This document shows positions 30,132-31,920 of a stretch of 64,000 nucleotides of DNA, in pieces. This stretch comes from Nocardioidaceae bacterium. Lineage in GTDB: Bacteria; Actinomycetota; Actinomycetes; Propionibacteriales; Nocardioidaceae. The position numbers and the translations under genes were made by a program. The notes under the pieces were generated by a model that saw nothing but the letters and a program-made list of their open reading frames with translations, searched no databases and was not told where the DNA came from. Each line of letters opens with the position of its first letter. Position 1 is the stretch's first letter. The stretch spans positions 3,211,827-3,275,826 of the forward strand of contig CP076053.1 of the NCBI GenBank assembly GCA_018672315.1. Direction: 5' to 3'.

Positions 30132-31727
30132 TCAGATCGGTGGCGCGGGTGGCCCGAGGTCGTCGATATCTCCGTCGGGTCCACGGCGGTAGGTGTGTCC
30201 GGTGGGTGAGCGCCACTCGTACGTCGCGGACGTGGGTGGTCCGGTGCGTCGGTAGGTCCAGCCGCTGTGGGTCTTGAGGCGGTGGTGGAAGCGGCAGAGC
30301 GCGGCGAGGTTGTCGGTGCACGTCTGAGGCATGTCGTGCGGGTCGGGGTCCTGGCCGCCGGGGTCCGGTGGTCGCCACCTGTCGATGTGGTCGAGGTCGG
30401 CTGCGCGGGCGGGGCGGTGGCAGTGCGGGAACACACACGTGCGGTCGCGCAGGATCACCTGTTCGCGGAGCCGGGGCCCGGGGGTGTACCCGTTGCTCGT
30501 GCGTTCTTCGGTGAGGTCGAGGACGGGCCGGATGGTCAGGCGGGTCTGTCCGGCGGTGGGGCCGGTGTCGGTCAGGGCGGCGTGGGCCCAGGCCCGGACG
30601 GTGGCTTCGTCGACCAGGCGTACGGGGCCGGACTCGATGGTCGCCAACCCGGCTGCGTGCATGAGCCCATCGGTGCTGCGGGTGAGGGCGGCGGCGGAGA
30701 GGTGGACGTGGAGCACGAGCTCGCGGGTTGCGCGGGTGCGGTGCTCGCGGTCGATGATCCGCTCGGCACCGTCGGTCGACCTCTCCGCGGTATCGGCGTC
30801 GCTGGTGTCGTAGGGGAGGACGAGTTCGCCGCGGGCGAGGACCCCCAGGGCCTAGGCGCGGAGGCACCCGTCGCTCGTGTGAGCGGGTGCGGTGGCTGCG
30901 AGGCGGGTGGCGATGAGGTCCAGGGAGGTGTCGAGGTCGGCGGCGTCGAGGGCATCGATGCGCCCGTCGACCCACGCCAGCCCGGCGAGGTCTTCGGCGG
31001 TGGGTGACCCGGACCGGTTCTGCACCGGAAGCGCGATCCGCACGTGCTGCTGGTTCCGCAGCTTTGCGGCCGCCTCGGACAGTGCGCGGGTCTGTTCGCG
31101 CAGACGCTCGTGCACCGTGGTCGCGTCGGTCAGCGCCAGCGCCTCGAGACCGCCGGCCTCACGGACAAGCTCCGCCTCGGCCTGCTGCACGCGCAGCAGG
31201 CCGGTGAGGGTGCGGTCCAGCGCCGGCACCCCGAGCCGGTGCGCCTTGAGAGCGAGCCACCGGTCCGCGGCACCAGCCCGGTCAAGGTCGAGGACGGTGG
31301 TGCGGGTGGCGATGCGTCGGGCCCGCCACAACGGCAGATCCAATGCCTCCACCCGTGCCCACGTGGCGGGGAGGCGGTGGCGCAGCTCGAGGAGGTCCGA
31401 GGCCAGGATCCGGGCGGAGTCGGTCGTCGTTCCGAGCGCGGCACCGAGGTCGGCCACACAGAACTCGGCGATCATCAGGGTCCCGGGCCCACCGAGGAGC
31501 AGGGCACGGTCGCCGTGGAGCGCGCCACCGGTGTCCGGGCCGTGACCGGCGGCATCATGGATCGACTCCGCCGGGTGAGCGTCGAGCCAGGCCAGCACCG
31601 CCCTGGCGCGGGCCACCTCTCCAGCACGAGCTGCCCGGTCACCGGCGCGCACGGCCGCGAGCAGATCGGCGGGCGTGCCCGATCCGCCTGATCCCTCGGC
31701 GCTGTCGTGGGTGCTGGTCACGAGCAT
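30132..31727 (-). pseudogene. DUF222 / 13E12-type HNH endonuclease gene interrupted by an in-frame amber codon
   Basis: The frame from 31727 (or a leaderless GTG at 31721) encodes a DUF222 domain up to a TAG at 30854-30852, and the same frame then stays open to 30132. Rejoined, it gives about 531 residues: DUF222 (about 20-330), then an HNH domain near the C-terminus with CVFPHCHRPARAADLDHIDRW (in part) and LCRFHHRLKTHSGW. Both halves look well conserved, so a single nonsense change rather than a frameshift breaks the gene. The HNH half could only be made by internal initiation or readthrough. A perfect SOS box precedes it, as known for mycobacterial 13E12 genes. Confidence 0.82.
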
Positions 31728-31755
31728 GAATCTAGGTGCGACCACCGACAGTTCT

Positions 31756-31771
31756 TCGAACGCGTGTTCGA
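31756..31771. promoter_or_regulatory. LexA (SOS) box upstream of the DUF222/HNH gene
   Basis: TCGAAC-GCGT-GTTCGA is a perfect 6-4-6 palindrome matching the actinobacterial LexA box TCGAAC(N4)GTTCGA. It lies about 30-45 bp upstream of the gene start. It would overlap the -35 region of a promoter whose -10 is TAGATT (31734-31729, minus strand). DNA-damage induction is expected from family knowledge. Confidence 0.85.
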
Positions 31772-31920
31772 ATGATGAGACGGTCTGTGGATCGGTTTTA
31801 AAGGGTCATGGGTCACCGGGTCTCGCGGCTCGGCTGGCGCCTCGCACCTCGACCACCGGGTTGCCGGAGTCTCACACCTCGCCATCGGCGTGAGACGGCA
31901 CCACGACGGCCGGCCGCCGG

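Follow-up and report, generated by a model that had tools for sequence, protein, structure and literature searches.

A probable composite LexA-PafBC promoter in front of an interrupted HNH-nuclease gene related to the 13E12/DUF222 superfamily

The interrupted gene and its family

The stretch of DNA that was analysed (the window, 64 kb, positions 3211827-3275826 of a genome scanned as one contig of 3.60 Mb) carries on its minus strand an interrupted gene for an HNH nuclease and, directly in front of that gene, two adjoining putative regulatory elements. The features are the following.

30132..31721, minus strand: HNH-nuclease gene, divergent subfamily of the 13E12/DUF222 superfamily, putative start
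30852..30854, minus strand: in-frame TAG stop, which ends the protein after ~289 residues, ahead of the HNH domain
30267..30437, minus strand: HNH motif segment CVFPHC...LDH...N...CRFHHRLKTH, coordinates counted by hand, columns conserved in the alignments
31729..31750, minus strand: PafBC / RecA-NDp promoter motif TGTCGGTG-N8-TAGATT, exact match to the consensus
31743-31750, minus strand: -26 octamer of the PafBC motif
31729-31734, minus strand: -10 hexamer of the PafBC motif
31756..31771, no strand: LexA (SOS) box TCGAACGCGTGTTCGA, exact motif, kept in the paralogues L042 and L043
31818..31857, minus strand: 40-bp intergenic repeat, exact in the three window-type copies, 1 mismatch at L032

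The reading frame runs from about 31727 or 31721 down to 30132 and is interrupted once, by the TAG at 30852-30854. With the stop located 5' of it, the HNH catalytic domain is not intact in the window copy, and the HNH residues are found complete beyond the stop, in the frame that continues to 30132. The domain is intact in L042 and L043; the alignment of the window copy with an intact paralogue gave 94% identity and a single TAG. The first-pass annotation had described the gene as interrupted, and the one in-frame stop and the presence of two intact paralogues in the genome bear this out. The start is likely a leaderless GTG (31719-31721), given that the start codon lies 6-8 nt past the -10 in most other genes with a PafBC motif; the alternative is an ATG at 31725-31727.

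The gene had been labelled DUF222 from its sequence. A Pfam search at E<=1 gave no match for either gene half or for the intact paralogue, an NCBIfam search at the same cut-off gave none for the gene halves, and the window gene did not reach the cut-off of PF02720 (DUF222 / 13E12 repeat family). A profile of the subfamily (57 proteins) did align in hhalign with a PF02720-type profile of 16 sequences, with a probability of 99.4% and an E-value of 5.6e-22 over 323 columns that included the HNH part. The label therefore holds in the sense of homology to PF02720-type proteins but not in that of a Pfam assignment, and the gene is best viewed as a divergent DUF222/13E12 HNH relative rather than a formal member of PF02720. 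Two structure models were made (pLDDT 55.8 and 76.0, respectively). A Foldseek search against PDB and BFVD returned no match at E<=0.001, and the predicted structure was thus uninformative on function.

Two near copies of the window gene show 97-98% identity over its N-terminal stretch, and two further copies in the genome are about 50% identical to it. PF02720 itself has 11 matches in the genome, which were taken as 10 genes, one of them split. Over all subfamilies the genome holds 15 family copies, three of which are broken: the window copy (one stop), L039 (split, with two matches) and L037 (5' end deleted). In the latter (at ~4948 of the oriented locus) the deletion cuts the LexA box, leaving 12 of its bases and the PafBC octamer; the gene still has an open frame of 950 codons.

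The LexA box and the PafBC-type element

The sequence TCGAACGCGTGTTCGA at 31756-31771 is a perfect palindromic LexA (SOS) box, which the first-pass annotation had reported correctly in both sequence and position. The exact motif TCGAAC-N4-GTTCGA occurs once in the 64-kb window and in none of 100 dinucleotide-preserving shuffles. The distance between the box and the putative start is 29 bp for the ATG and 35 bp for the GTG. With the GTG at 31721 as start, the box would span about -35 to -50, immediately upstream of the PafBC-type element, so that the earlier placement over the likely -35 region is approximately correct. A chance palindrome without operator function is extremely improbable: although the gene behind it is broken, the exact site was absent from all shuffles, both intact paralogues (L042 and L043) carry the identical box at the identical place, and boxes are enriched among the relatives (see below). 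The possibility that the box serves a divergent gene was rejected, as the only ORF nearby on the plus strand (114 aa, at 31808) is antisense to the next gene.

A scan of the genome for other boxes, as proposed in the first-pass annotation, yielded 16 exact sites (0 for the reversed-pattern control) and 31 sites with at most one mismatch (control: 5). Of the 16 perfect boxes, ten stand immediately ahead of family genes (the window gene, L042, L043, L032, L033, L034, L036, L038, L039 and L041), and one-mismatch boxes at two further copies, L035 and L040, bring the number of family copies with a box to 12 out of 15. The strong SOS sites of this genome thus largely belong to one HNH family, a fact that had gone unnoticed. 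The remaining six perfect boxes adjoin lexA, a DUF6504 gene, a gene for a ROS/MUCR-type regulator, two small ORFs and a gene for a pyridine nucleotide-disulphide oxidoreductase. The genome encodes a LexA DNA-binding domain, and lexA is accompanied by one perfect and two one-mismatch boxes, whereas recA and uvrA have a one-mismatch box each. The genome context, in which the same motif is found perfect before lexA and with one mismatch before recA and uvrA, supports the view that the box of the window gene would act as a true SOS operator.

Some of the other sites deserve mention in their own right. The gene of the ROS/MUCR-type regulator (L048:3279-3941) has its perfect box ~10 bp ahead of the start and may represent an SOS-controlled regulator. 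The two small ORFs (L049:4360-4713 and L050:4194-4565) have no Pfam match and are candidate SOS proteins.

Between the box and the start, 5 bp downstream of the box, lies the element TGTCGGTG-GTCGCACC-TAGATT, which satisfies TGTCRGTG-N8-TANNNT exactly at promoter position (31729-31750). The RecA-independent promoter of mycobacteria has been given as tTGTCRgtg-8nt-TannnT (PMC5656591), and promoters of this type are used by PafBC (PMC6789036, PMC11804915). The element shares with the mycobacterial RecA-NDp promoters the -26 octamer, the 8-nt spacing and the TANNNT -10. Beside the LexA box there is thus, judged by sequence, a second and PafBC-type damage promoter, which the first-pass annotation had overlooked.

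Within the window a PafBC motif with at most one mismatch is expected 0.39 times by chance and was present in 34 of the 100 shuffles, and therefore the support for the element comes from the genome and from the relatives. The exact motif occurs 16 times in the genome (reversed control: 0) and in eight of these cases precedes a family gene; it also precedes genes for an RNase_T/GIY-YIG exonuclease, sbcD and DUF6504. Moreover, pafA (PF03136), a WYL protein (pafB) and pafC (HTH_PafC, PF19187) are encoded in one operon. Considering both elements, six of the 15 family copies carry the two together, six (subfamily A) only the LexA box and two (L044 and L045) only the PafBC motif, which amounts to 14 of 15 copies with at least one; the last one, L037, has the octamer and a partial box. 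A further gene with an exact PafBC motif but no family assignment (L098:2-1492) begins shortly after the family copy L043.

These data bear on the question whether LexA could be the sole regulator, with the PafBC-like element an ordinary promoter conserved for other reasons. LexA control is the only published part for this family, five putative HNH endonucleases of Mycobacterium tuberculosis have been described as induced in a RecA-dependent way, and subfamily A has LexA boxes only. We nevertheless consider such a scenario rather improbable, given that the 8-mer and its fixed spacing match the published PafBC consensus (as quoted above) exactly, that L044 and L045 have the motif and lack a LexA box, that it also precedes sbcD and the exonuclease gene, and that pafABC is encoded. 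The organization at the locus is more likely, with good though not complete confidence, a composite promoter, made up of a LexA operator and a PafBC element, of a damage-inducible 13E12/DUF222 HNH gene, the window copy of which would have been disabled recently.

Promoters of the relatives and arrangement of the elements

The promoters of homologues were inventoried for 80 named loci. These come from 37 organisms, almost exclusively Nocardioides, which would place the genome studied here in or near the Nocardioidaceae; as the set includes many paralogues, the loci are not independent. When one mismatch was tolerated, 51 loci had a LexA box, and 34 had an exact PafBC motif, as compared to 0 and 0-1, respectively, in six flank controls of 77-79 sequences each. 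When two mismatches were allowed in the LexA box and the -10 was relaxed to any T-N4-T, 76 of the 80 loci had at least one of the elements (flank controls: 1-5 of 77-79). Similarly, among 30 PF02720 loci taken from the class outside this family, 27 had one or the other (controls: 1-4 of 30); these were the best-scoring loci, mostly from two families.

In four genomes of relatives that were chosen regardless of their promoters, with 16 matches taken from each, either element was found in 16, 12, 15 and 1 of the 16, respectively; reversed-sequence controls gave LexA boxes in 0-2 of 16 and no PafBC motif. The genome with a single positive (G008) might seem a counterexample, but the -26 octamer is retained in 13 out of 13 aligned copies, together with a different -10; the other three of its 16 copies were not aligned. 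In the aligned copies (L299-L311) the octamer is followed by a -10 like CAGAAT and then by AGAAT-ATGTTCT, with a conserved CCCTTGTGGATAAG upstream, a pattern that perhaps represents a changed LexA site or the site of another regulator. Perfect boxes proved a misleading measure in the relatives: another of these genomes (G018) has none among the listed places, yet 13 of 16 loci showed a box once a single mismatch was tolerated (16 of its 25 matches were taken).

Alignment of 13 loci that had been classified as having neither element, from five species (4+3+2+2+2), revealed the -26 octamer in all, with one variant, and at the same spacing a -10 that lacks the TA. The stricter classifier thus undercounts PafBC. 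These loci (L135, L172, L169, L178, L116 and paralogues) stem from five Nocardioides species, and the combination of octamer and TA-less -10 is uniform per species. On a tree of 57 proteins, 50 of which are from the 80 named loci, the promoter type changed at least 13 times, against a mean of 30 after shuffling (the minimum depends on the classifier, in this case the stricter one), which implies that the promoter types are clustered but not fixed.

A particular arrangement emerged for the named loci with both elements (LexA with at most two mismatches, PafBC octamer with at most one). In 34 out of 34 cases the box starts 21 nt past the start of the motif, so that the -10 ends on the first T of the box. 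Furthermore, 48 of the 60 LexA boxes found at these homologues enclose a start codon that is in frame and opens a reading frame. Three arrangements can be discerned:

Type I: the -10 and the box share one base, with which the former ends and the latter begins; seen in Nocardioides and in genomes of other families; pattern found in 24 of 296 genomes of the class
Type II: the box encloses the -10; seen in this genome in subfamilies C and D; pattern found in 14 of 296 genomes at <=1 mismatch
Type III: the box immediately precedes the octamer; seen in the window type; pattern found in 3 of 391 genomes of the order

The window type, with its LexA box upstream of the PafBC element and not over it, is thus a rare arrangement. 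One of the three type III genomes is from another family, and there too the pattern precedes a PF02720-type gene. Family genes follow 22 of the 30 type I loci that were read and 16 of the 23 type II loci (among the latter 23, a nearby contig end left two without a verdict, and three are from the genome studied here). The composite LexA-PafBC promoter is thus not exclusive to the HNH family.

The first-pass annotation had also proposed a DNA-damage role for the family, and it is on this point that the promoters of the relatives (e.g. 76 of 80) lend strong support. Considering that either element is found in 14 of 15 own copies and in 76 of 80 homologues, and that the spacing is fixed in 34 of 34 cases, the family looks to have been selected for expression upon DNA damage via two regulators triggered by single-stranded (ss) DNA. 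Put differently, the promoters suggest a family built for being switched on when DNA is damaged.

How the composite promoter may work can be outlined on basis of the mycobacterial systems, in which RecA filaments on ssDNA bring about LexA cleavage and ssDNA-bound PafBC makes the polymerase use the -26/-10 promoter (PMC6789036, PMC11804915). LexA bound to the palindrome would repress the promoter, and PafBC, as an ssDNA-switched activator, would drive transcription from the adjacent TGTCGGTG-N8-TAGATT, probably yielding a leaderless mRNA. Single-stranded DNA would be sensed by LexA via the RecA filaments and by PafBC via its WYL domains. As the sites overlap or nearly touch, LexA should block the PafBC promoter, and expression would then require release of LexA and activation by PafBC together. 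The dual control is perhaps an AND gate in this sense, but given the LexA-only promoters of subfamily A and the PafBC-only promoters of subfamily E such a gate would not be general.

LexA control of genes of the 13E12 repeat family is known from M. tuberculosis (PMC5005354 and PMC4181829), and the multi-copy HNH genes under LexA boxes described here resemble REP13E12 of that organism. REP13E12 loci show frequent gene conversion (PMC13061034). Unlike REP13E12, the window subfamily falls below the detection limit of Pfam DUF222 and has a PafBC-type promoter beside the operator. Genes with a PafBC-dependent promoter that have LexA sites as well are also known in mycobacteria, recA for instance, which has separate P1 and P2 promoters (PMC6789036, PMC11804915). 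In contrast, here a single promoter has both elements touching or overlapping, and the start codon often lies within the box (48 of 60, see above). In the main texts of the openly accessible papers that were searched, we found no report of PafBC or dual control of the 13E12/DUF222 HNH family. The LexA side of the proposed control has its precedent in M. tuberculosis, and what appears new is the PafBC element joined to the LexA box. The work on PafBC is mainly mycobacterial, and a motif search in Streptomyces venezuelae spoke for a lack of conservation there. A natural promoter with overlapping LexA and PafBC sites would offer a clear example of how one promoter integrates two damage sensors.

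Proposed spread of the copies, possible roles of the nuclease and recency of the break

The copies of subfamily A (L032-L036 and L039) share 90-94% DNA identity. For several pairs the similarity sets in exactly where the LexA box does, and for other pairs no more than a few tens of bases away; it stops at about the stop codon and the flanks are unrelated. The cassettes of promoter plus gene, 15 copies in this genome, would have been spread or homogenised fairly recently. Subfamilies A and E have dN/dS ratios of 0.10-0.23, as compared to 0.29-0.41 for the window type, which indicates that the proteins have been under selection.

The function of 13E12/REP13E12 in M. tuberculosis is still described as undefined (PMC13061034), and for the family studied here two explanations were weighed. 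The more plausible one, although it stays somewhat short of an even chance, is a host nuclease that is produced under heavy damage and serves in the processing of lesions or in killing of the cell. A role in mismatch repair has been proposed for LexA-controlled 13E12 HNH genes. The HNH nuclease MSMEG_1275 of M. smegmatis reportedly cleaves DNA, is lethal when overexpressed and, in the context of programmed cell death, is raised alongside DNA-repair genes. The likeness is one of description, and control of MSMEG_1275 is ascribed to an ArsR regulator. The purifying selection seen in dN/dS fits such a host function as well; the variable copy number and the broken copies do not, and the present data suit repair and killing alike.

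The other explanation, which we regard as unlikely, is that of a selfish cassette: a homing-like unit of promoter and HNH gene that would cut DNA at times of induced recombination proteins and multiply through gene conversion, with pseudogenes such as the window copy as its debris. This would be compatible with regulation by a composite promoter and may add to it. The sharp borders of the 90-94% identical copies are suggestive of such a unit, and so are the grouping of same-species paralogues on the tree and the three broken copies out of 15; REP13E12 loci have moreover been reported as gene-conversion hotspots in M. tuberculosis (PMC13061034), and the 13E12 family has been described as having characteristics of mobile elements. 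However, the same borders are expected from gene conversion between old copies, and the dN/dS of 0.10-0.41 equally suits a host function. Extended to the actinobacteria at large, DUF222/13E12-HNH would be a damage-timed, homing-like element whose promoters were selected for the link to ssDNA and for which the damage response of the host serves as the clock, a generalization that is likewise doubtful. If true, the ssDNA link, via LexA, PafBC or a composite AND gate, would have been switched repeatedly, and a DNA-cutting, self-spreading cassette would be made solely during active RecA recombination. In case both damage pathways do meet on the family promoters with a fixed geometry, the purpose of the nuclease becomes directly testable.

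With respect to the window copy, which would be a lately disabled member of the composite-promoter family with its promoter intact, the first-pass annotation took the kept operator as a sign of recent inactivation. A recent loss is the likely reading, but the operator is weak evidence for it. The dS between the window copy and the two intact paralogues is 0.087 and 0.113, and by our own arithmetic 12 specified bases that are not under selection would remain unchanged around half the time at these values, so that at such divergence the intact operator carries little weight. Better evidence is provided by the single lesion and by the dN/dS of the window copy versus the intact paralogues (0.29-0.36), which is near the 0.41 between the two intact ones. 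The single lesion, the dS values and the complete HNH residues together point to a recent loss, or to a sequencing error.

Finally, the three window-type copies have ~110 further upstream bp in common, and the 40-bp intergenic repeat at 31818..31857 belongs to this upstream homology. Weaker copies of the repeat were observed at L049 and L053, with 6 and 8 mismatches, respectively.
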